Source of the DNA: Acidibrevibacterium fodinaquatile
GTDB lineage: Bacteria; Pseudomonadota; Alphaproteobacteria; Acetobacterales; Acetobacteraceae
DNA: 64,000 bases
Direction of reading: 5' to 3'
Assembly (NCBI RefSeq): GCF_003352165.1
Contig: NZ_CP029176.1
Coordinates: 1,612,001 to 1,676,000, forward strand
Shown: positions 2,065 to 55,270 of the stretch, in pieces
Layout of the letters: every line of letters starts with the position of its first letter
How positions within the stretch are numbered: position 1 is the stretch's first letter
Program-made: the position numbers and the translations under genes
Notes under the pieces: model-generated
Database searches by the model: none
Told to the model about the DNA's origin: nothing
What the model saw: only the letters and a program-made list of their open reading frames with translations

Positions 2065-3132
2065 TTACCGCTGCCCGGCAGCGACGTCGATCTCGTCGAA
2101 CCCCTGGTAGCGATAGATCACCAAGGAGACGATCCAGGCGGCGATGAAGATGCCGATGATGATGAAGCCGAGGCTGCCGAAATTGTCGTTAAGGGCGCCG
2201 ATACCATCCCAAAACCAGCCGCCAAGGCCGAGCTGGTCGCCGATCAGGCCGAGCGCCTCGATCCCGCCGATCGCGACCGCGACCACCACCGAAACCAGGG
2301 TGATGGTGAGGTTATAGTAGAGCTTGCGCATCGGTTTGACGAAGGCCCAATTATAAGCGCCCAGCATCAGGACGCCATCGGTGGTGTCGATCAGCGACAT
2401 GCCAGCGGTGAACAAAGCCGGAAACACCATGATCGACCAGATCGAGAGGCCCTTGGCGGCTTCGGTTGCCGAAATGCCGAGCAGCGCCACTTCGGTTGCG
2501 GTATCGAAGCCGAGGCCGAACAGAAAGCCGAGCGGAAACATATGCCAGCCCTTGGTGATCAGCCGGAAGAGCGGGCGGAAGAAGCGCGCGAGCAGGCCGC
2601 GGCTGTTGAGCAGAAGATCGAAATCCTGTTCTTGAAACGCGGCGCCGCGCCGCACCGCTTGGAATGTCCGCCAGACCGCGAGCAGGATGAAAAAATTCAT
2701 CGCCGCGATCGCGAACAGAAATAGCGCCGAAACCAGCGTCCCGACCACCCCGCCGATGCTTTTTGCAAGGTCCATCTGTGACGCCAGCGCCTTCGCGGTG
2801 CCGGCAATGGCGGCGGCGGCGAGCAGGACGACGCTGGAATGGCCGAGCGCGAAGAAAAACCCGACACTGACCGGCCGCTTACCCTCCTGCATCAGCTTGC
2901 GGGTGACGTTGTCGATCGCCGCGATATGATCGGCATCGACGGCGTGACGGAGCCCGAAGCCATAAGCGAGAAATGCTGTGCCGAGCAGCACCGGTTGGGT
3001 GCGGAACAGCATCAGCGCCCACGCCCAAACCGCGAGGTTGACGCCGAGCAGCACGGTATAGATGCCGATGATCGGCCGGCGCAGCGATGGCGCGGCATGT
3101 GCGGCAGATGTTTCAGACGGATGGGAAGACAT
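2065..3132 (-). CDS. NiCoT-family cobalt/nickel permease
   Basis: A 355-residue polytopic inner-membrane protein with about eight hydrophobic segments. It carries the NiCoT signature RHAVDADHIAAIDN at 62-75 (the HX4DH motif that binds the metal in transmembrane segment 2), the FFFALGHSSVV motif and an LGFDTATEVALL motif. The family imports Ni2+ and/or Co2+. A cobalamin riboswitch lies directly upstream, so cobalt for B12 synthesis is the likely physiological substrate; this is inferred from regulation, since sequence alone does not separate Ni from Co transport. The gene is monocistronic here and convergent with the glycosyltransferase. Confidence 0.9.
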   Translation of the reverse strand: MSSHPSETSAAHAAPSLRRPIIGIYTVLLGVNLAVWAWALMLFRTQPVLLGTAFLAYGFGLRHAVDADHIAAIDNVTRKLMQEGKRPVSVGFFFALGHSSVVLLAAAAIAGTAKALASQMDLAKSIGGVVGTLVSALFLFAIAAMNFFILLAVWRTFQAVRRGAAFQEQDFDLLLNSRGLLARFFRPLFRLITKGWHMFPLGFLFGLGFDTATEVALLGISATEAAKGLSIWSIMVFPALFTAGMSLIDTTDGVLMLGAYNWAFVKPMRKLYYNLTITLVSVVVAVAIGGIEALGLIGDQLGLGGWFWDGIGALNDNFGSLGFIIIGIFIAAWIVSLVIYRYQGFDEIDVAAGQR

Positions 3133-3214
3133 GAGACCTCTCTCGGTGACGTCGCCTGTCTTCGGCGCGAGAAACAGAGGGACTCCCCGCCCCCTGCGGC
3201 ACCGTTGACGTCAG

Positions 3215-3402
3215 TGATGGCAGGTCTCCTGGCTTACGGCTCAAATGCCAACCACCACCTTCCCGGGATCCCGCCCCATTGTCACGGGCGGTTTCCCAGT
3301 GGCCTATCGGTGGCCGGCTCGCCGCTCACAGTTGCGGGGGCAGCCGCGGCTTAGGGGGCTTCCGCACCGCGTTCCCTTTTGATCCCCTCCCGGGGAACCA
3401 TC
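3215..3402 (-). promoter_or_regulatory. Cobalamin (B12) riboswitch
   Basis: On the minus strand the canonical elements appear in order. They are GGTGATGGTTCCCC and an AAAAGGGAAC segment near 3375-3402, then GGCTGCCCCCGCAACTGT near 3330-3350, then the B12 box AAGCCAGGAGACCTGCC near 3219-3235. The 3' side leads into about 80 nt of leader before the permease start codon. This arrangement fits adenosylcobalamin-dependent repression of the downstream NiCoT gene. Confidence 0.93.
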
Positions 3403-3467
3403 ACACGGAGGATAAACGCGCCGTTTCCGCCGCGTCAATCCATGCGTCAGCCGGCGTCATCACCCGC

Positions 3468-6475: not shown

Positions 6476-7345
6476 TTAGGGCGAGGCGGTCTTGACGGAA
6501 CTGGCGATGGCAACGGGGTGGGCGCGATAGGCGTCGAGGCCGCGGCCGGGGATAGCGCCGAGCCTGGCCGGGGCCGAGGCGCTGGCGGCCGCCATGCCGC
6601 GCGCGATGACCCCGCCGCCGCCGCTGCCAGGTGCGGCCATCGGGATGATATGGGGTGGCGGCGCATGGCTCATCTGCAGTCTCGGCAGGGCGCCGCGCAG
6701 GCCACCGACCGGTCGCATCGCCGCGCCATCGGCAGCGGCGAGCAGCAGGTTCGCAGGCTGCACCGGCAGGCCCTGCTGCTCGCTGGTCCAGGCCGCCATC
6801 ACCTTGCGCTGATAGGCGAAGGCGAGCTCGGGTGTCATGGAGTGATATTGCGCTGCGGCGCGCGCCCAATCCCCGGTCTGGGCGTGGAGCTGGGTCAGGA
6901 ATTGCGCGGCATAATCGGCATTGGCGTTGGGATCGAAGGCCTGATCAAGGCTCGCGAAGGCATGCGGGTGATGCATCAAATTTACTTGCAGGCAGCCGAC
7001 ATCGATCGAGGTGACGCCGCGCGCCTGCAACGCGCGGACGGCGGCGATGGCCTCGGCTTTGCTCGCGTAGAAATGCCCTTCACCTTCGGCATTCACCGTC
7101 CACGGCCAGGGCGAGAAGCTGCCGGTTTCGGCATCCTTGCGGCCGCTTTCGACGAGGGCGATGGCGCTCAGAAGATGCGGCGGGATGGCGTGGGTGCGCT
7201 CAGCCTGGTCAACCGCCTGCCGGCAGAGGAGGCCGAGCGCCGGCGCGACCAAGGGCCGCAGCATCGGCGCCAGCATGTCGGCGCGCGCCGCCGGCGCCAA
7301 AAGCGCGCTCACCATGAGCCCCAACACCCAGATCCGCGGTCGCAT
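6476..7345 (-). CDS. Secreted SLT-type lytic transglycosylase
   Basis: The 289-residue precursor has a signal peptide (residues 1-22, ending ALLAPAARA). A lysozyme-like SLT domain spans about 40-190, with the catalytic-Glu context LLSAIALVESGR and the downstream SIDVGCLQVNL and WARAAAQYHS motifs. The C-terminal 100 residues are low-complexity, rich in Ala, Pro and Gly. Proteins of this kind cleave peptidoglycan glycan strands in the periplasm and often open the wall locally for secretion systems or flagella. No secretion genes are adjacent, so housekeeping wall turnover is equally possible. Confidence 0.82.
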   Translation of the reverse strand: MRPRIWVLGLMVSALLAPAARADMLAPMLRPLVAPALGLLCRQAVDQAERTHAIPPHLLSAIALVESGRKDAETGSFSPWPWTVNAEGEGHFYASKAEAIAAVRALQARGVTSIDVGCLQVNLMHHPHAFASLDQAFDPNANADYAAQFLTQLHAQTGDWARAAAQYHSMTPELAFAYQRKVMAAWTSEQQGLPVQPANLLLAAADGAAMRPVGGLRGALPRLQMSHAPPPHIIPMAAPGSGGGGVIARGMAAASASAPARLGAIPGRGLDAYRAHPVAIASSVKTASP

Positions 7346-7453
7346 GGCGGCGAAAATGGCGGAAAATCGTTAGGAAATCATTGAGACGCCACCGCCCGCC
7401 GTGCGCTTGCGGCAGGCGTGCGGGTGATGCGATGCTGCAATGCAAAAAAATAC

Positions 7454-7482
7454 TTGCGGCGGCGCTCGCGAATGGCTAGATT
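7454..7482 (+). promoter_or_regulatory. Sigma70-type promoter for a candidate sRNA
   Basis: TTGCGG at 7454-7459 and TAGATT at 7477-7482 are separated by exactly 17 bp. They lie in the intergenic gap and point toward the hairpin-terminated segment 7489-7574. No gene start follows on the plus strand. Confidence 0.6.
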
Positions 7483-7488
7483 GTGCAC

Positions 7489-7574
7489 CGCAGCAATGCG
7501 GCTTTGCCGCGCTGCTGCTTTCTTGGACGTTTCCTCCCTAAACTTGGCGGCGCCACAAGCGCCGCCATTTTTTT
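7489..7574 (+). ncRNA. Candidate trans-acting small RNA (AbcR/alpha-r15-like architecture)
   Basis: An orphan transcription unit of about 86 nt. Hairpin 1 is at 7490-7515 (GCAGC..GCGGC/GCCGC..GCTGC). A 30-nt unpaired stretch follows, with the pyrimidine-rich anti-Shine-Dalgarno sequence ACGTTTCCTCCCT. It ends in a perfect 8-bp terminator stem (7546-7553 with 7559-7566) and a 7-T tract at 7568-7574. A sigma70-type promoter is correctly placed upstream. From memory, the two-hairpin layout with a CU-rich linker resembles the rhizobial AbcR/alpha-r15 sRNAs, which use Hfq to block translation of transporter mRNAs. The family assignment is tentative; the transcription-unit structure is seen directly. 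Confidence 0.65.
7546..7574 (+). terminator. Intrinsic terminator of the candidate sRNA
   Basis: GGCGGCGC, loop CACAA, GCGCCGCC, then A and seven Ts. It points away from both flanking minus-strand genes, so it serves only the plus-strand unit. Confidence 0.8.
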
Positions 7575-7621
7575 GCCTGCGCGACGGTGCGGGCGGCCGC
7601 ATCAACCCGCGGGGAAAACCC

Positions 7622-8284
7622 TCAGAGCCCTTGCAGGAACGGGTTGCTGCGGCGTTCGGCGCCGATATGGGAGGCCGGCCCGTGGCCACAGATGAAATGC
7701 ACGTCGTCGCCGAGCGGGAGAATTTTTTCGGCGATCGCGGCGAGCAATTGCTGATGATCGCCATAGGGGAAATCGGTGCGGCCGATCGAGCCTTGAAACA
7801 GGACATCGCCGAGCACCGCGAAGCGGTTGGTGCGATCGACGAAGACGACATGGCCGGGCGTATGCCCGGGGCAGTGAAGAACCGCGAACGGCACACCGGC
7901 GATCTCGACCTCGTCCCCCTCGGTGAGGAAGCGGTCCGGCGCCACATCCTCCATGTCCGCGAGGCCGAACGCCGCCGCCTGGCGGGCGATGTTTTCGAGC
8001 AGGAAGCGATCCTGCGCCGCGGGCCCGACAATCGGCACCGTCCGGCCCGGTTGCGCCGTGGCCAGCGCCCGCGCCAGCGCGCTCGCCCCGCCGGCATGGT
8101 CGAGATGGCCATGCGTCAGCAGGATTTGCTCGATGGTGACGCCAAGCTTCTCGATCGCGGCGAGGATGCGCGGGACATCGCCGCCAGGGTCGATCACCGC
8201 GCCGCGGCGGCTTTCGGGGTCTGAGATCAGGGCGCAATTCTGCTGAAACGCGGTGACCGGGATCAGCGTGACCGAGAGTGTCAT
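7622..8284 (-). CDS. Metallo-beta-lactamase-fold hydrolase (glyoxalase II-like)
   Basis: A 220-residue single-domain protein with the di-metal motif THGHLDHAGG, the PGHTPGHVVF histidine, the GDVLFQGSIGRTDFP aspartate segment and a terminal CGHGP histidine. The last segments match the short glyoxalase II-like branch (YcbL type), whose members hydrolyse thioesters such as S-lactoylglutathione. The substrate-binding C-terminal helical domain of classical GloB is missing, so the substrate is uncertain. The next upstream gene encodes a second MBL-fold protein 13 nt away, so the two are probably cotranscribed. Confidence 0.85.
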   Translation of the reverse strand: MTLSVTLIPVTAFQQNCALISDPESRRGAVIDPGGDVPRILAAIEKLGVTIEQILLTHGHLDHAGGASALARALATAQPGRTVPIVGPAAQDRFLLENIARQAAAFGLADMEDVAPDRFLTEGDEVEIAGVPFAVLHCPGHTPGHVVFVDRTNRFAVLGDVLFQGSIGRTDFPYGDHQQLLAAIAEKILPLGDDVHFICGHGPASHIGAERRSNPFLQGL

Positions 8285-10166: not shown

Positions 10167-10200
10167 TAGAGCACGATCGGTTTAAGTCGATCGCGCTCTA
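10167..10200. repeat. Palindromic intergenic element, TAGAGC type
   Basis: TAGAGC-A-CGATCG, a short centre, then CGATCG-C-GCTCTA forms a near-perfect inverted repeat. From memory, TAGAGCAyGATC-type palindromes recur between genes in many alphaproteobacterial genomes as REP-like elements. No coding potential. Confidence 0.6.
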
Positions 10201-10226
10201 CACCTATTTTGGCGAGCAAGTTGGCC

Positions 10227-10260
10227 GGTTTTGATTGAACAGGATGGTTCAATCAAAACC
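10227..10260. repeat. Perfect 14-bp inverted repeat
   Basis: GGTTTTGATTGAAC (10227-10240) and its exact complement (10247-10260) flank AGGATG. It lies downstream of the lipoprotein gene (stop at 10270), so it could end that transcript, but it has no U tract. It lies only 26 bp from the TAGAGC palindrome. Confidence 0.7.
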
Positions 10261-10269
10261 TACCTTGCT

Positions 10270-10713
10270 CTAATGGTCGGTGGGTAGCGGGTTGAAATGG
10301 GCGGTCTTGTCGGCGTGGGAGAGGGCGGCGAGGGTGACCACGCCGCTGTGATCGACCACCACGGTGAGGACATCGCCGCCGATGCCGGTGCCGCCAGTGT
10401 CAAGCTCGTGCGGGGCGCGCGAGATCGGGCCGACATAATCGAGCGGGGTGCCGAGATCGGCGTCGAAATCGGCGGCGTCATAGAAGAAATAGCGCGCGAT
10501 GAAGCCTTCGGCGCCGGGGTCGATCGCCGATGGGGCGCCGAGGCGCGCCGTCACGTCGCGCCACGGGGTGTGGCCGGGGGTGATGAACGCGATATCGGCG
10601 GGGTGGATCGGCTGGTTCAGCGTCGTCCGCGTCCAGGTGATCGGCGAACAGCCAGCGGCGGTGAGGCCGGCGAGGCCAGCGAGGGCAAAGACGAGGCGCC
10701 GGGCGGAAACCAC
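10270..10713 (-). CDS. Outer-membrane lipoprotein, SmpA/OmlA-like, second of a pair
   Basis: A 147-residue precursor with a lipoprotein signal peptide and lipobox (LTAAGC, acylated Cys22). The mature part begins with an IAFITPGHTPWRDVTARLG segment, which matches the helix-turn of SmpA/BamE-like domains (IxPGxT.. V...LG.P). A beta-rich region follows. It starts 2 nt after the stop of a paralogous lipoprotein gene, so the two form an operon. Its role is unknown; assistance in outer-membrane assembly is only a family-based possibility. Confidence 0.68.
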   Translation of the reverse strand: MVSARRLVFALAGLAGLTAAGCSPITWTRTTLNQPIHPADIAFITPGHTPWRDVTARLGAPSAIDPGAEGFIARYFFYDAADFDADLGTPLDYVGPISRAPHELDTGGTGIGGDVLTVVVDHSGVVTLAALSHADKTAHFNPLPTDH

Positions 10714-43838: not shown

Positions 43839-44107
43839 GAAGGGCTCACCCCTTAGCACGGGCGCGCCGGCTTGGCACGCGCCGCCGGCGGCGCGCCTTG
43901 GGTAGCGAATTCTTCACCAATCCCCGCGATAGTAGCGAGACAAACCCGCTGGGTAAGTTCCTGCAAGGCACGTCACATGCTGTTGTCTGCCCTGTCTTTC
44001 GAGTCGGACCTTTGAAAAAGCCGCGCGCTTTGCCTTCGTCGGCGCGGCGGGTGGCGCCGGTCGCCGGTCGTGTCACGAAAGCGGCGTCACGGCGCGAGGG
44101 CGATGAC

Positions 44108-45790
44108 ATGGCGCTCCGCGCCGCGCTTCTCCGCATCGCCGAAGGGGTCATCCTGCTCGATCGCGATTTGCATGTGATCCTTTGCAACGCAGCGGCGCGG
44201 CGGCGGCTCGGCTGGATCGGCGCGCCACCGCGGCACGGCCTCGCGCTCGCGACCGTGCTGGAGCACGCTGGCGCGCTCGATGCCGCCGAGCGCATGACGA
44301 TCCGCGACCATTGTGCCGCCATGCTCGCCGGAGACGCAGCGCCGGCGAACGGGCATGACAGCGCCGCGGCGGAGAAGGAACTCGTTTTCGGCGATTTTGC
44401 GATGCGGCTTTCGCGTCTCGACGGGCAGGGGATCATCCTTTCGATCCCGACGCGGGGCGATGATGGGGAGGCGGCGCTCCGCGATCCGCTCACTGGGCTC
44501 GGCAATCGCCGCGCGTTCCAAGCGGCGCTGGCGGCGGTGCTGGCGCGGGCCGAGGCCGAAGCCGCGCTGCTTCTCCTCGATCTCGATCGCTTCAAACATG
44601 TCAATGACTCGCTCGGCCATCCGATCGGCGATGCGCTGCTCCGCCTGGTCGCGCAGCGGCTCCGCGGCAGTCTGCGCAGCGGCGATACGCTGGTTCGCCT
44701 CGGCGGCGATGAATTCGCCATTTTGCTGCCGCGCGCCGAGGGCGCCGAGAAGCTGGCGGAGCGGCTGGTCGATCTCCTGAGCCGCCCCTACTTGGTCGAT
44801 GGCCATCTCGCCAATATCGGGGTCAGCATCGGGATTGCGCGCGCGCCGGCGGACGCCAGCGAAGGCGGGATGCTGCTGCGCCGCGCCGATCTCGCGCTCT
44901 ACGCCGCCAAGGCGGCCGGGCGGCGGCAATTCGCCATGTTCCGGCCGGAGATGGATGCCCGCGCGCAGGCCCGGCAGGCGCTCGAGACCGATCTTCGCCG
45001 CGCCGTCGCCCTTGGTCAGTTCCATTTGCACTACCAGCCGCTGCTCGAGGTTGCCTCGGGCGCGGTGGTCGGGTTCGAGGCTCTGCTGCGTTGGCAGCAT
45101 CCGGAGCGGGGGATGGTCTCGCCGGCGGAATTCATCCCGCTGGCCGAGGAGGTCGGCCTCATCGTGCCGATCGGGGAATGGGTGCTGCGCCAGGCGTGCC
45201 GCACCGCCGCGAGCTGGCCGGAGGCGGTTTTGGTCGCGGTCAATGTCTCGCCGGTGCAATTCGCCGATGGCGCGCGGCTGCTCCGCGCCGTCGATGAGGC
45301 GCTGGCGAGCGCCGGCCTGCCGGGCGCGCGGCTCGAAATCGAAATCACCGAGAGTGTTCTGCTCCGCGATGCCGCCGAGACGCTCGCCATTCTGCATGAG
45401 CTGCGCGGCCGTGGCGTGCGCATCGCCATGGACGATTTCGGCACCGGCTACTCCTCGCTCAGCCAGCTGCGGAGCTTTCCCTTCGACAAAATCAAGATCG
45501 ACCGCTCTTTCGTCAGCGAAATCGAGACTCAAAACGGCGGCAAAGCGGTGGTGCGCGCGATCGCGGCACTCGGCGCCAGCCTCGGCATGACCGTTACCGT
45601 CGAAGGGGTCGAAACCGAGGCGCAGGCGCATTTCGTCGCCGCCAGCGGCGGCCATCAGATGCAGGGCTATCTGATCAGCCGTCCGGTGCCGGCGGAGGCC
45701 GTCGGGGCGTTGCTCGCCGGCCGACGGGCGTTTCCCGGCGCCGGCCGCGCCCGAACCATTTCGCCCGAGAGAGCCCGAGACGGAGCCTAA
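44108..45790 (+). CDS. PAS-GGDEF-EAL cyclic-di-GMP enzyme
   Basis: A 560-residue soluble protein. A PAS-like domain (about 1-115) precedes a GGDEF domain with intact GGDEF at 199-203 and an intact RSGD product-inhibition site at 190-193. An EAL domain (about 300-550) follows, with EAL at 324-326 and a complete DDFGTGYSSL loop. Both diguanylate cyclase and phosphodiesterase activities are therefore possible. The start at 44108 follows a GAGGG-containing Shine-Dalgarno. A BLUF photoreceptor gene begins 4 nt after its stop, so the pair probably forms a light-linked c-di-GMP module. Confidence 0.88.
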   Translation: MALRAALLRIAEGVILLDRDLHVILCNAAARRRLGWIGAPPRHGLALATVLEHAGALDAAERMTIRDHCAAMLAGDAAPANGHDSAAAEKELVFGDFAMRLSRLDGQGIILSIPTRGDDGEAALRDPLTGLGNRRAFQAALAAVLARAEAEAALLLLDLDRFKHVNDSLGHPIGDALLRLVAQRLRGSLRSGDTLVRLGGDEFAILLPRAEGAEKLAERLVDLLSRPYLVDGHLANIGVSIGIARAPADASEGGMLLRRADLALYAAKAAGRRQFAMFRPEMDARAQARQALETDLRRAVALGQFHLHYQPLLEVASGAVVGFEALLRWQHPERGMVSPAEFIPLAEEVGLIVPIGEWVLRQACRTAASWPEAVLVAVNVSPVQFADGARLLRAVDEALASAGLPGARLEIEITESVLLRDAAETLAILHELRGRGVRIAMDDFGTGYSSLSQLRSFPFDKIKIDRSFVSEIETQNGGKAVVRAIAALGASLGMTVTVEGVETEAQAHFVAASGGHQMQGYLISRPVPAEAVGALLAGRRAFPGAGRARTISPERARDGA

Positions 45791-45794
45791 CGTG

Positions 45795-46244
45795 ATGACG
45801 AAACAGGAACTCTATCGCGTCGTCTATTGCAGCCGGATGCGGATTTCCGGCCCGCCTGCCAGCATCGCGCGGGAATTGCGCGATATTCTCGCGACCTCGC
45901 GGCGCAACAACGCCCGCGCCGATCTCAGCGGCGCGCTCTTGTTCGCCAATAATTGCTTTGCCCAGACGCTCGAAGGCCCACGCGTCGCGCTCGAGCAATG
46001 TTTCGAGCGGATTCAGAACGACCAACGTCATTCCGATGTCACCGTGCTCGAATTTGGCCTCGCTGCGGCGCGTGAATTCCCGAAATGGTCGATGGGCTTC
46101 GCCGGTGAGCCCGGGGCGCATGATCCCTTGGCCTTTGTCGTCTTTGAAGGCGCGTTCGCCAACGAGCGGCCGGAATCGAGTTCGGCGGTGCTCGGCCTGC
46201 TGCATGGCCTCGTGCGCCGCGAGGAGGCCTGGGCACTCGCCTGA
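45795..46244 (+). CDS. BLUF-domain blue-light photoreceptor
   Basis: A 149-residue single-domain protein with the FAD-binding BLUF fold (about 5-100). It has Tyr11 in YRVVYCSR, Asn39 in SRRNNARADLSG, Gln57 in FAQTLEG and Trp98/Met100 in FPKWSMGF. These are the residues of the BLUF hydrogen-bond switch. There is no output domain, so it must signal through a partner. The adjacent PAS-GGDEF-EAL gene is the obvious candidate, as in two-gene versions of BLUF-EAL proteins. A GTG start one codon upstream is also possible. Confidence 0.88.
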   Translation: MTKQELYRVVYCSRMRISGPPASIARELRDILATSRRNNARADLSGALLFANNCFAQTLEGPRVALEQCFERIQNDQRHSDVTVLEFGLAAAREFPKWSMGFAGEPGAHDPLAFVVFEGAFANERPESSSAVLGLLHGLVRREEAWALA

Positions 46245-49419: not shown

Positions 49420-50704
49420 CAAGGCTGTTCAACGCTCTCTCGTTGGCTGGACTGAGCCCGATTTGTAACATCTGATGGGTGAAATGCATTCATGGAGACG
49501 AAGGGGATTCCCCAATCGGGAAATGTCTGACTCATAGGGCGGCAACCGAAGTGGAGGTTGCCGTGGCTATATTCTCACCGTTGCTGGACGTGCTGGCGGA
49601 GATTCCTGATCCGCGCCGGGCGGAAGGAAAGCTCTACCAACTGCCTTACGTGCTGCTGTTCGCCATCCTGGCCATCGTCAGCGGCTGCAATTCGTATCGC
49701 GGCATCATCACCTTCATCGACGTCCATCGTCACCGGCTGAACGCCATCTTTGCGCTGAAATGGCGTCGCGCGCCGGCGCACACGGCCATCCGCTACATCC
49801 TCCAGGGGCTTGATCCGGCTGCGGTGGAGGCGGTCTTCCGCCGCCATGCCGCCTTGCTGCAGGCCGCGCGCGCGACGCCCGGACAGGGCAGCATCGCGCT
49901 GGATGGCAAGACGCTCCGCGGCAGTTTCGACAACTTTCACGACCGCGCCGCCGCCCAGGTGCTGAGCGCGTTCGCCACCGACACCGCCCTCGTGCTCGCC
50001 CATGTTGAGATCGCCGAGAAATCCAACGAAATCCCGGCAGCGCAGGCGCTGCTTGCCGAACTCGGCGTCCCGGCCGGCGCCGTCGTCACCCTCGATGCGC
50101 TGCACTGCCAAAAAAAACCTTCGAGGCCGCTGCGCAGGCCAACCTCGCCCTGATCGTCCAGGTCAAGGACAACCAGCCCACCCTGCTGCGCCAGATCACC
50201 GAATTCTCCACCACCACGCCACCGCTCGGATCCGCCCACAGCCACGATATCGGGCGCAATCGCGACGAGCGCCGCACCGTCACCGTCCTTGATCCCGCCA
50301 ACATACTCGCCAACACCGACTGGCATCCACACGTCGCCGCCATCATCCGCGTCGAGCGCGAGGTGTTCACCCGCAGCAGCAAGACCGGGCTGCTGCGCCA
50401 CTCCGCCGAGACCGCCTTCTATGTCTCCAACACGCCGATCTCCGCACGCCGCGCCGCCGATGCCATCCGCGCACACTGGCGGATCGAAACCACCTCCCAC
50501 TACAGCCGCGACGTCACCTTCGGCGAAGACCGCTCGCGCATCCGCACCAACCCCGGCGTGTTCGCACGCTTGCGCAGTTTCGGTTTCAACATCCTTACCG
50601 CACATCGTACCAACACACTCGCCCAGGACCGCTACCGAGCCGCCCTCGCCGGTATCGATAATATGCTCGCGCTGCTCGCTATCTCATAGCATTGAACAGC
50701 CTTG
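49420..50704 (+). mobile_element. ISAs1-family insertion sequence, 1285 bp, with 10-bp target duplication
   Basis: The ends are inverted repeats starting CAAGGCTGTTCAA (left 49420, right ending 50704). Both are flanked by the identical 10-bp direct repeat GCGCGCAGGT at 49410-49419 and 50705-50714. A 10-bp duplication is within the usual range for this family. The perfect duplication suggests a fairly recent insertion. It carries one transposase gene, which is frameshifted, and it interrupts the extreme 3' end of gcvP. Confidence 0.93.
49563..50689 (+). pseudogene. ISAs1-family transposase, frameshifted at an A8 run
   Basis: The reading frame from GTG 49563 (GGAGG 6 nt upstream) starts VAIFSPLLDVLAEIPDPR and includes YVLLFAILAIVSGCNSYRG and the first DDE aspartate in ALDGKTLRGS. 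It reaches the second aspartate in LDALHCQKK, then shifts. After eight As at 50110-50117 the homologous frame continues -1 (TFEAAAQANLALIVQVKDNQ) through HWRIETTSHYSRDVTFGEDR to a stop at 50689. Reading one A twice gives a full-length protein of about 375 residues. Either the element is dead or slippage on the A8 run makes a little transposase. Confidence 0.88.
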
Positions 50705-53510
50705 GCGCGCAGGTGCAGACCAGGTTGCGGTCGCCATAGGCGTTATCGACGCGCGCGACCGGCGGCCAGTATTTCGCCGCGGCGACGAAGGGTAGCGGAA
50801 ACGCCGCCTGCTTGCGCGAATAGGGATGCGTCCAGTCATCCGCGGTCACCCGGGCGGCGGTGTGCGGGGCGTTTTTCAGCGGATTGTCGGCGCGGTCGAG
50901 GCGGCCGGCGGCGATCGCCGCGATCTCGCCGCGGATCGCGATCATGGCGGCGCAGAAGCGGTCGATTTCCTCTTTCGGCTCGCTCTCCGTCGGCTCGACC
51001 ATCAGCGTGCCGGCGACCGGCCAGGACATGGTCGGCGCATGGAAGCCGAAATCCTGCAAGCGTTTGGCGATGTCCTCGACCGTAACCCCGGCTTCCGCCT
51101 GAAAGGCGCGGCAGTCGAGGATGCATTCATGCGCGACGCGCCCGCGCTCGCCGCGATAGAGGATCGGATAATGCAGGCCGAGGCGGGCTGCGACGTAATT
51201 CGCATTGAGGATTGCGATCTCGCTCGCGTGTTTGAGGCCGGCGGCGCCCATCATGCGGATATAGGCGTAGGCGATGGTGAGGATCAGGGCGCTGCCGAAA
51301 GGCGCGGCGGCGACCGGGCCGTAGCCGGATGCCGGCCCGGCATCGACTGACAAAGGGTGGTTTGGCAGATGTGGCGCGAGGTGGGCGGCGACCGCGATCG
51401 GCCCGACCCCGGGGCCGCCGCCGCCATGCGGGATGGTGAACGTCTTGTGGAGATTGAGGTGGCAGACATCGGCGCCGATCGCGCCCGGGCTGGTCAGGCC
51501 AAGCTGGGCGTTGAGATTGGCGCCGTCCATGTAAACCTGCCCGCCGGCCTCGTGCACGCGGGCGCAGATCTCGCGAATGCCGGCCTCGAACACGCCATGG
51601 GTGCTCGGGTAGGTGACCATCAGCGCGGCCAGGCGCGGGCCGTGCGCTGCGATCTTGGCGCGAAGATCGCCGAGATCGATATTGCCATGGGCGTCGCAGC
51701 CGACGACGACGACGCGATAGCCGGCCATCACCGCGCTCGCCGGGTTGGTGCCGTGGGCGCTCGCCGGGATCAAGCAGACATCGCGCCCGCCCTCGCCGCG
51801 CGCCGCGTGATAGGCGCGGATGGCGAGAAGCCCCGCGAACTCGCCCTGCGCCCCGGAATTGGGCTGGAGCGAGACCGCTTCCATGCCGGTCGCGGCGGCG
51901 AGCCAGGCGGCGAGGCGGCGGATCAGGATGAGATAGCCGATGCTCTGGTCCTCGGGCTGGAAGGGGTGGATATCGGCGAAGCCGGGCCAGGACAGGGCCA
52001 TCATCTCGGCGGCGGCATTCAATTTCATGGTGCAGGAGCCGAGCGGGATCATGCCGCGATCGAGGGCGATATCCTTGTCGGCGAGGCGGCGGAGATAGCG
52101 CAGCATCGCATGCTCGCTCTGGTGGTGATGGAACACCGGATGGGTGAGGATCGGCGTTCGCGGGGGGAACGCAGGCGCGGGCGTGGGCCCGAGCGTTGCC
52201 CCGAAGGCGTCGGCGAGGCGGGCAAGTTCCCCCTCCGTCACCGTCTCATCGAGCGCGATCGCGACGCCATCGGCGAGCGGGCGGAGATCGAAACCCGCCT
52301 CGCACCCGCGCGCGAGCAAGGCGCGGGCATCGCCGGTGATCGCGATGGTATCGAAGAACGCGGGATGGCGGGGGGGAAAGCCCGCGCGCGCGAGCGCCTC
52401 GGCGAGGCGGCGGGCCATGCCGTGGACGCGGCCGGCGATCCGGCGCAGCCCCTCCGGCCCGTGCCACATCGCATAGAAAGCCGCGATATTGGCGAGCAGA
52501 ACCTGCGCCGTGCAGATGTTCGAGGTCGCTTTCTCGCGCCGGATATGCTGCTCGCGGGTCTGAAGCGCGAGGCGGAGCGCGGGCTGCCCTTCCGCATCGA
52601 CCGAGACCCCGACCAAGCGGCCAGGCATCTGGCGGCGGAAAGCGGCGCGGGTCGCGAAGAAGGCGGCATGCGGGCCGCCGAACCCCATCGGCACGCCAAA
52701 GCGCTGCGCCGAGCCGACGACGACATCCGCTCCCATCTCGCCCGGCGGGGTGAGAAGGACGAGGGCCAGCGGGTCGGCGGCAACGATGGCGAGCGCGCCG
52801 GCGGCGTGGGCGGCGGCGATCTCGGGGGCGAGATCGCGGAGCGCCCCGGTGGTGCCGGGATATTGCAAGACCACGGCGAATGGCCGCGCCGCTTTGATCG
52901 CCGCGGCATCGCCGGGGGCGACATCGATCAGCGTCCAGCCATGGGGTGCGGCGCGCGTTGCCAGCACGGCGCGGGTCTGGGGGTGGAGATCGGCGGCGAC
53001 AGCGATCGCGGCCGCGTCTTTCGCTTGCGCGACGGCATGCGCCATCGCGACCGCTTCCGCCGCCGCCGTCGCCTCGTCGAGCAGCGAAGCGTTGGCGATC
53101 TCCATCCCCGTGAGATCGATGATCATCGTCTGAAAGGCGAGCAGCGCTTCCAGCCGGCCTTGCGAAATTTCCGGCTGGTAAGGGGTGTAGGCGGTGTACC
53201 AAGCGGGATTTTCGAGCACGTTGCGCTGGATCACCGGCGGCATGTGCGTCCCGTGATAGCCCTGGCCGATCAGGGGTTTGCGCCCGCCGTTGCGGGCGGC
53301 GAGGGCGGCGAGTTCGGCGAGCACGCCGGCCTCGTCGAGCGGCGCGGGAAGCCCTTGCCCGCTTTCTCTCCGGATCTCGCCGGGGATGGTCTCGGCGATC
53401 AGATCATCGAGGGTCGCGACACTGATGGCCGCCAGCATCGCGGCCTGATCCGCGGCATTGGTCGCGATATGGCGGCGGGCGAAATCGGAGTCGGAAATCG
53501 GCTTGGGCAT
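50679..53510 (-). CDS. gcvP: Glycine dehydrogenase (decarboxylating), P-protein
   Basis: A 943-residue PLP enzyme, single-chain type, that decarboxylates glycine and passes the aminomethyl group to GcvH. The PLP lysine sits in [18 protein letters not shown], with the Gly-rich region [17 protein letters not shown] upstream. The N-terminal half begins [16 protein letters not shown]. The last seven residues (RLFNAMR) are encoded by an IS end and replace the family-like LADYAQAAE tail, which survives beyond the IS. The enzyme is probably still active because the change is at the extreme C-terminus. Confidence 0.95.
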
Positions 53511-53524
53511 GGGCGCCTCTGTCG

Positions 53525-53899
53525 TCAGAGTGTTGCGACCAAGGCGCTATAGGCGGCCTCGTCGAGGAGGGTTGCGAAATCATCCGGGTTGGCCGGGGTG
53601 AGGCGGAAGAACCAGCCTTCACCCTCGGGCGCGCGGTTGACCAGTGTCGGATCCTCGACGATGGCGCCATTCACCGCGGCGATGGTGCCCGCGAGCGGGG
53701 CATAGACGTCGGACGCCGCTTTGACGCTTTCGACGACGGCACAAGCCTCGCCGGCGGCAACCGCGCGGCCGGGTTCGGGGAGTTCGATGAACACGAGATC
53801 GCCGAGCGCGGTTTGCGCATGGTCGGTGATGCCGATGGTGAGGGCGTCACCATCACGGCGCACCCATTCATGATCCTTGGTATAGCGGGTCTCGGTCAT
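53525..53899 (-). CDS. gcvH: Glycine cleavage system H protein
   Basis: A 124-residue lipoyl carrier: [32 protein letters not shown] and the lipoyl lysine in [17 protein letters not shown]. It shuttles aminomethyl between P, T and L proteins. It starts 7 nt after the gcvT stop and ends 14 nt before gcvP. Confidence 0.96.
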
Positions 53900-53906
53900 G
53901 GTTTCC

Positions 53907-55016
53907 TCAACTGGCGTAACGATGGGGAAGGAAGGGGAGGGGGACGACGCTGGCCGCCAGGGCGCGCTCGCGCACCGAGACGGCGAGCGCAGTGCCGGGT
54001 GTCGCGAAGGCGGCGGCGACATAGCCCATGGCGATCGGTGCAGAGAGCGTCGGACTAAAACTGCCGGAGGTGACGCGGCCGATCTCGCGCCCGTCGGCGA
54101 GGATCGCAGCCCCACTCCGCGCCGGCGCCCGGCCTTCGAGGCGGAGGCCGATGCGCTTGCGCGCCGGGCCGGCTTGCCACTCGGCCGCGATCGCGGTGCC
54201 GCCGGGAAAATCCCAAGCCTCGCGCCGGCGCTTGGCGATCGTCCAGGCCAGGTTTGCTGCGATCGGCGTCGTGGTCTCGTCGATATCCTGGCCGTAAAGG
54301 CAGAGCCCGGCTTCGAGCCTGAGCAGATCGCGCGCGCCGAGCCCGGCCGGCAGCACGCCGGGCAGCGCGAGGAGCGTCCGCGCCAATCCCTCCGCCGCCG
54401 CCGCCGGGAGCGAAATCTCGACCCCATCCTCGCCGGTATAGCCCGAGCGTGAGACAAGGCAGGGGATGCCGGCGACCCCGCATTCCCTGACCGCCATAAA
54501 GCGCAGATCGGCGAGAGCGGGGGCGAGGGGGGCGAGCAGCGTCATTGCTTTCGGCCCCTGGAAAGCGAGCAGCGCGCGTTCGGGATGCGGGGTGAGCGTG
54601 ACCTCGGGCGGCAGATGGGCGGTGATGTGGGCAAAATCGGCCGCTTTGCGTGCCGCGTTAACGATCAGGAACAGATGATCCTCGGCGAGCCGCGCGACCA
54701 TCAGATCATCGAGAATGCCGCCCGCCGCATTGGTCAGCAGCGTATAGCGTTGCCGCCCGGGCGCGAGGCCGGCGATATCACCCGGCACCAGCCGCTCGAG
54801 GGCCGCCGCCGCCGCCATGCCGCGCAAGCCCGCCTGGCCCATATGCGAGACATCGAACAACGCGGCTTCCTCGCGGCAGGCGCGGTGCTCGGCGAGGATG
54901 CCGGCCGGGTAGGAGACCGGCATGGCATAGCCGGCGAACCCGACCATGCGGGCGCCGAGGGCGCGATGCAGCCCATCGAGCGGACTCACATGCAAGGCTT
55001 CGGACTCTTCGGTCAT
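53907..55016 (-). CDS. gcvT: Glycine cleavage system T protein (aminomethyltransferase)
   Basis: A 369-residue tetrahydrofolate-dependent enzyme beginning MTEESEALHVSPLDGLHRAL. Motifs are PAGILAEHRACREEAALFDV-SHMGQ, GGILDDLMVARL and SGYTGEDGVEISLP. GGAG precedes the ATG at 55016. It is the first gene of gcvT-gcvH-gcvP and lies behind a glycine riboswitch; the open frame upstream overlaps the riboswitch and is not coding. Confidence 0.95.
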   Translation of the reverse strand: MTEESEALHVSPLDGLHRALGARMVGFAGYAMPVSYPAGILAEHRACREEAALFDVSHMGQAGLRGMAAAAALERLVPGDIAGLAPGRQRYTLLTNAAGGILDDLMVARLAEDHLFLIVNAARKAADFAHITAHLPPEVTLTPHPERALLAFQGPKAMTLLAPLAPALADLRFMAVRECGVAGIPCLVSRSGYTGEDGVEISLPAAAAEGLARTLLALPGVLPAGLGARDLLRLEAGLCLYGQDIDETTTPIAANLAWTIAKRRREAWDFPGGTAIAAEWQAGPARKRIGLRLEGRAPARSGAAILADGREIGRVTSGSFSPTLSAPIAMGYVAAAFATPGTALAVSVRERALAASVVPLPFLPHRYAS

Positions 55017-55062
55017 CTCAGGCTCCGCTGACGGTCGCGCCGACGCGCTGCCGGCATTTCGA

Positions 55063-55270
55063 CCCCCCTCTGTCGCGGAACCTGAGAGATTGGGCCGCGT
55101 GCGGGCGGCCTTACCCCGTCGGTGCGGCGGGCGAGATCCCGCCGGCTTTCCAGAGATCCGAATTCCCGCGCGGCCCTTTTGCCTGAGCGTTTCCGGGGGC
55201 CGGTTGCGCCTTCGGCGGCGAGGCCCGGCGCGCGAACAGGTTGGCGGCCGGCCCCACTCTCTCCCGCGCG
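55063..55270 (-). promoter_or_regulatory. Tandem glycine riboswitch
   Basis: On the minus strand aptamer 1 runs from GCGGGAGAGAG (about 55268) through GCCGAAGGCGCAA to CTCAGGCAAAAGG (about 55178). Aptamer 2 follows, with CACCGACGGGGTAA (about 55110-55123) and CTCTCAGGTTCCGCGACAGAGG (about 55066-55087). The two-aptamer layout directly upstream of gcvT is the classical glycine ON switch. Confidence 0.93.

Follow-up and report, generated by a model that had tools for sequence, protein, structure and literature searches.

An alpha-r8 (MmgR-family) small RNA gene with PhaR-type promoter boxes, and its additional copies, in Acidibrevibacterium fodinaquatile

Analysis of a 64,000-nucleotide stretch of the Acidibrevibacterium fodinaquatile genome (contig NZ_CP029176.1, positions 1,612,001 to 1,676,000; here termed the window) identified positions 7490-7574, on sequence criteria, as a genuine gene for a small regulatory RNA of the alpha-r8/MmgR family and not, as the original prediction had it, of the AbcR type. 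The family is a known one, to which this locus adds a new member. Our preferred reading, which we hold with a probability of roughly 80%, is that this chromosomal gene would encode a trans-acting RNA of the MmgR/SisA type which is repressed by PhaR and silences uptake functions in connection with carbon storage. The features of the locus are as follows, with positions counted within the window.

6476-7345, minus strand: neighbouring lytic transglycosylase (SLT) gene, which adjoins the small RNA in many family members
7435-7447, no strand: Box 1, CTGCAATGCAAAA, PhaR/AniA-type palindrome with core TGCAATGCA at 7436-7444, just upstream of the -35 hexamer
7454-7459, plus strand: -35 hexamer TTGCGG, by direct reading and conservation in 23 aligned rows
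7477-7482, plus strand: -10 hexamer TAGATT, 17-bp spacer from the -35, by direct reading and conservation
7480-7495, no strand: Box 2, ATTGTGCACCGCAGCA, with core TGCACCGCA at 7484-7492, 16 bases identical to the Sinorhizobium meliloti mmgR operator
7490-7574, plus strand: alpha-r8/MmgR-family small RNA gene, about 85 nt, RF00519 match at 7510-7581 with 55.7 bits
7490-7518, plus strand: first hairpin, predicted fold
7527-7539, plus strand: anti-Shine-Dalgarno stretch ACGTTTCCTCCCT, direct reading
7530-7539, plus strand: seed UUUCCUCCCU, the common alpha-R8 10-mer, exact, within the near-invariant linker 7519-7546
7545-7574, plus strand: Rho-independent terminator, stem 7545-7567 and T run 7568-7574 (seven T)
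7622-8284, minus strand: neighbouring metallo-beta-lactamase-fold hydrolase gene, which adjoins the small RNA at four out of five same-genus loci examined

Much of the architecture described in the original prediction could be read again directly, namely the promoter with its 17-bp spacing and the orientation of the RNA opposite to both flanking genes, while other details had to be adjusted. The first hairpin is present and ends at 7518 rather than 7515; the terminator has its stem and seven T, with nine pairs (eight of them G-C) in place of eight; and the linker described as exposed is there, with the first bases of the 10-mer UUUCCUCCCU placed in a weak 3-pair stem by both the minimum-energy and the consensus fold. 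Transcription would start near 7489-7490, given the promoter spacing and the conserved first stem. A plain sigma-70 scan did not pick up the TTGCGG/TAGATT promoter, which we accept because both hexamers are conserved across the 23 rows (column identity 0.82 for the -35 and 0.85 for the -10, with 0.48 in the spacer).

Family membership was determined by comparison with Rfam. The RF00519 model (suhB/MmgR, alpha-r8) matched 7510-7581 with 55.7 bits against a gathering score of 41 (E 9.4e-9 in the window), and was the sole match over the small RNA stretch at curated thresholds. Models for alpha-r15 (AbcR) and alpha-r14 belong to the covariance-model library; a lenient comparison of 261 bases gave 14 matches up to E 10, in which neither family was represented and RF00519 alone exceeded its gathering score; the covariance search proposed in the original prediction for alpha-r families thus pointed to alpha-r8 instead. 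A match to CcsR1 was below threshold (16.1 bits, 65.3 needed), and one to the rpsL_pseudo leader (30.4 bits against 70) was taken as chance, like the other sub-threshold matches. In PMC12559287 the alpha-R8 family is described by its terminator and by the single-stranded 10-mer UUUCCUCCCU; here the 10-mer is exact and lies downstream of the hairpin, the Rho-independent terminator follows at 7545-7574, and a PhaR/AniA operator is present by sequence at the promoter, with 16 bases in common with S. meliloti. The N-formylglutamate amidohydrolase gene is not a neighbour of 7490-7574, which is flanked by the SLT and metallo-beta-lactamase-fold genes; according to the same text this linkage is usual in most (single-copy) species and not defining, and among the Caulobacter siblings it holds for sisA only. 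Elsewhere in the window we noted a Cobalamin riboswitch (3202-3417, minus strand, 122.9 bits) preceding a gene for a NicO-family metal transporter (2065-3132, minus), a Glycine riboswitch (55060-55163, minus) upstream of glycine-cleavage genes (50679-55016, minus), and, at 44051-46244 (plus), a GGDEF-EAL protein gene directly followed by a gene for a BLUF blue-light sensor.

The predicted fold of the RNA has an energy of -41.9 kcal/mol, compared with -25.7 (sd 2.75) in 200 shuffles; this z of -5.9, together with the E value of the covariance-model match, indicates more structure than chance would give. The segment TTCTTGGACGTTTCCTCCCTAAACT is invariant across a 17-row alignment (17 of 20 rows, three with unlike first stems having been left out), and eight of the 20 predicted pairs show at least one two-sided change in these rows, with such changes in both stems. 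On this point the original prediction is supported: the locus is a conserved small RNA gene that lies outside the Rhizobiales and has a promoter, a terminator and an anti-Shine-Dalgarno linker.

The promoter is bracketed by two PhaR/AniA-type palindromes, Box 1 and Box 2. In S. meliloti the mmgR operator CAATTGTGCACCGCAGCATTA is bound efficiently by PhaR, and the shift is abolished once the palindromes are removed or mutated (PMC12542648, Table 3 and accompanying text); Box 2 corresponds to 16 consecutive bases of this operator. Mean column identity in the 23 rows was 0.93 for Box 1 and 0.94 for Box 2, against 0.48 in the spacer and 0.43 farther upstream, values which are favoured high because the rows were picked partly for visible boxes and which for Box 2 are not owed to the box alone, since it shares bases with both the -10 hexamer and the first stem. 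Less biased counts come from 21 SLT-linked loci and from a set of 85 matches. Among 47 public loci found via the SLT protein, 21 had the seed on the opposite strand less than 900 bases from the SLT match; at least one TGCRNYGCA box lay 20-125 bases before the seed in 20 of these, and both boxes were at their usual places in 12 of the 21, as counted by hand. Of the 85 matches, 13 had no exact TTTCCTCCC around the position where it should lie and were excluded. A strict box preceded 33 of 40 Acetobacteraceae copies outside the C subtype (missing in seven) compared with 2 of 18 inside it (Fisher p 3e-7), and was found before 6 of 14 copies from other families. These 18 copies make up a second alpha-r8 subtype, marked by GTGTGACTGGYGTTTCCTCCC, with one copy per genome, namely a locus of this genome adjoining a zwf-like gene (C1:2627810-2627885, minus strand) and those of 17 relatives.

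Within the genome the boxes are tightly associated with alpha-r8. In the 64-kb window TGCRNYGCA has 10 sites (0.016 per 100 bases), of which, on our own gene calls, just two are intergenic, namely Box 1 and Box 2. The stringent form CTGCANTGCANAA has eight sites in the 4.04-Mb genome and none for the reversed control; seven of the eight are upstream of alpha-r8 loci and the eighth, C1:3129313, belongs to a promoter remnant whose upstream sequence is as in the alpha-r8 copies, with no RNA part after it and a Mutator-family transposase gene downstream. The relaxed S. meliloti PhaR consensus YGCRNYGCRNHHWNW was discarded as non-discriminating in this GC-rich genome (532 sites, 579 for the control).

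The genome encodes PhaR and two PhaC proteins, together with two phasins that score over the cut-off. Across 100 Acetobacteraceae genomes, this one included, PhaR and RF00519 occurred together in 75, neither in 17, PhaR only in two and RF00519 only in six (p 2e-12), and three of these last six are less than 90% complete. In a set of 40 genomes (this one and 39 relatives) PhaR (PF07879) and RF00519 were both present in 30 and both absent in six, with two cases each of PhaR only and RF00519 only, one of the latter a weak 30.7-bit match (p 2e-4). These p values ignore kinship between genomes, which are not independent, and the 17 joint absences may reflect few losses. The pattern of box plus seed was found in 34 of the 100 genomes, with none for the control, and PhaR was present in 31 of these 34 compared with 46 of the 66 without the pattern (p 0.02); of the three box-plus-seed genomes that lack PhaR, one has no RF00519 match and its pattern is probably due to chance.

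The main competing explanation accepts the alpha-r8 RNA and assigns the boxes to a regulator other than PhaR, which we consider rather improbable. In this genome neither the phasin genes nor phaR has a strict TGCRNYGCA in the 120 bases upstream, phaR having a relaxed match only (C1:1164783), and no TGCRNYGCR is found within 150 bases of the two phaC genes; as these classic PhaR targets are without the motif, another protein might own the boxes. Two genomes (G060 and G085), moreover, keep a stringent box and alpha-r8 with no PhaR detected, and are either counter-examples to the PhaR link or assembly gaps. Set against this are the 16 bases shared with an S. meliloti operator which PhaR no longer shifts without its palindrome, the presence or absence of PhaR and alpha-r8 together in 92 of the 100 genomes, and a further genome (G014) with no PhaR detected, whose alpha-r8 copy has no box.

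It is very unlikely that the boxes act on the divergent transglycosylase gene and that the hairpins are only a terminator. Box 1 does lie 90 bases upstream of the longest SLT start; however, boxes occur at six other alpha-r8 loci of the genome and accompany alpha-r8 plasmid copies next to other genes, and an invariant linker and a covarying first hairpin argue against a mere terminator. AbcR1 and AbcR2 (alpha-r15) follow an anti-Shine-Dalgarno logic and have transport genes as targets, a likeness shared by the linker of our RNA and by its seed matches at the start sites of solute-binding-protein genes, but with RF00519 at 55.7 bits and no Rfam match to alpha-r15 or alpha-r14 up to E 10 we regard membership of either as extremely improbable. 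A PhaR-controlled alpha-r8 RNA is the reading retained below.

The predicted targets would lie in carbon uptake and catabolism. The motif GGGAGGAA is found 2-10 bases before an ATG at 39 places and at four for the reversed control, an excess which strong ribosome-binding sites would give anyway. Open frames of 100 codons or more follow at 30 of the 39 places, and eight of these 30 genes, whose seed match is perfect over 8 bases, encode solute-binding proteins (ABC or TRAP type); the others include two MFS transporters, short-chain and aldehyde dehydrogenases, acyl-CoA-ligase-type enzymes and a PQQ dehydrogenase. No solute-binding protein was identified by Pfam among the 46 window genes scanned (of 50 scored), although the window is no proper background, and control of nutrient uptake by the RNA, as suggested in the original prediction, is plausible, the 8 of 30 being a weak prediction without a proper background. 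Of 120 genes sampled, the PQQ dehydrogenase had the strongest duplex at its start region (-25.4 kcal/mol). The sample was not random, being drawn from the window and from 13 loci, some of which had been chosen for a seed match or for polyhydroxybutyrate (PHB) genes. A lower value still (-29.0) was given by a short-chain dehydrogenase gene, one of the seed-match candidates. Phasins were rejected as seed targets, not being among the best 12 of the 120 start regions. A search for a sponge RNA through the exact seed complement AGGGAGGAAA established no candidate: of 12 sites seven are antisense to copies of the small RNA, two are in start regions (a hydrolase/carboxymuconolactone-decarboxylase gene and the PQQ dehydrogenase) and three are elsewhere.

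These elements suggest a model in which PHB is made under carbon surplus. PhaR, as the PHB sensor, would repress the small RNA via the two operators bracketing its promoter until PHB granules titrate it away, upon which the operators would be freed and the RNA would accumulate. The CCUCCC seed, possibly with the help of Hfq, would then pair with the Shine-Dalgarno regions of carbon-uptake and catabolic mRNAs, and their silencing would slow the inflow of carbon when storage is full. According to PMC12542648 and PMC12559287, in S. meliloti PHB granules sequester PhaR, MmgR rises when PhaR is lost, and PHB rises when MmgR lacks its 10-mer, while in Caulobacter SisA represses an mRNA by base-pairing, with further seed pairings predicted, and the sponge CrfA antagonises the alpha-R8 siblings, sponging SisA with the help of Hfq.

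The gene is not alone in its genome, which has eight RF00519 matches at E below 1e-3, six of them over the cut-off, and so exceeds all 39 relatives (0 to 5). Five loci (C1:1515342, 2760390, 3325114 and two on C3) are in duplicated mosaic blocks, in regions which carry MobA/MobL relaxase-helicase, serine recombinase and transposase genes. The plasmid-like 45.8-kb contig C3, which holds two of the alpha-r8 copies, also encodes Tn3-type transposases, a relaxase-helicase and a radical-SAM protein which may be PqqE. A repeat of about 107 bp in the window (about 10167-10273) is 94-97% identical to copies less than 4 kb from two other alpha-r8 loci. By eye we also noted CTAAACTTTCCTCCCTCC, a rearranged alpha-r8-like core word, between glnA- and glnB-like genes (locus L062, about 2245-2270, minus strand). 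The window RNA matched 21 plasmid records (Roseomonas nine, Acidiphilium three, Methylobacterium three, others six) and a plasmid copy gave no match in phage records. In eight plasmid regions read, all seven Acetobacteraceae-type copies, on Acidiphilium and Roseomonas plasmids among others, had a box and the Methylorubrum copy had none. One of the seven is labelled Acidithiobacillus ferrooxidans and reads identically to the Acidiphilium copies over the 190 bases compared, which is either contamination or transfer. On both pACRY03 and pACMV1 the RNA is flanked by a MobF relaxase gene on one side and a gene for a RecD-like helicase on the other. Because RNA genes are absent from the plasmid gene tables, these do not tell whether the copies had been annotated. 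We tentatively propose, as a possibility with the odds somewhat against it, that alpha-r8 in the Acetobacteraceae may form a multicopy, partly mobile storage-sensing module, in which cassettes of PhaR operator plus small RNA on plasmids and integrated elements, all with the same seed, would tap the PHB signal of the host and raise the dose of its own uptake-silencing RNA. The alpha-r8 family phylogeny of Lagares et al. 2016 may, reportedly, cover plasmid copies.

The closest known systems are MmgR of S. meliloti (RF00519), with which our locus shares the family model, the seed and a PhaR-type promoter operator over 16 bases, and SisA to SisD of Caulobacter crescentus (alpha-R8), which have the same 10-mer seed and also comprise several siblings at separate loci. 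In contrast to these, two boxes bracket the promoter here and there are eight loci, where S. meliloti has one alpha-R8 small RNA, and a box is found at seven of the eight, where the Caulobacter siblings have no conserved upstream motif (both by PMC12559287). PhaR control of an alpha-r8 RNA is documented for S. meliloti in PMC12542648. The portions of the literature covered here, including PMC12559287, PMC12542648 and PMC7143759, mention neither alpha-r8 on Acetobacteraceae plasmids nor PhaR control in that family, and neither a conserved Acetobacteraceae double operator, a stringent box nearly exclusive to alpha-r8, nor boxed plasmid copies. If the boxes work as proposed, the chain that leads from the storage granule via the repressor to the small RNA would be conserved in another order, alpha-r8 RNAs would act as a feedback from storage to uptake, and why plasmids carry alpha-r8 would become a question in its own right.
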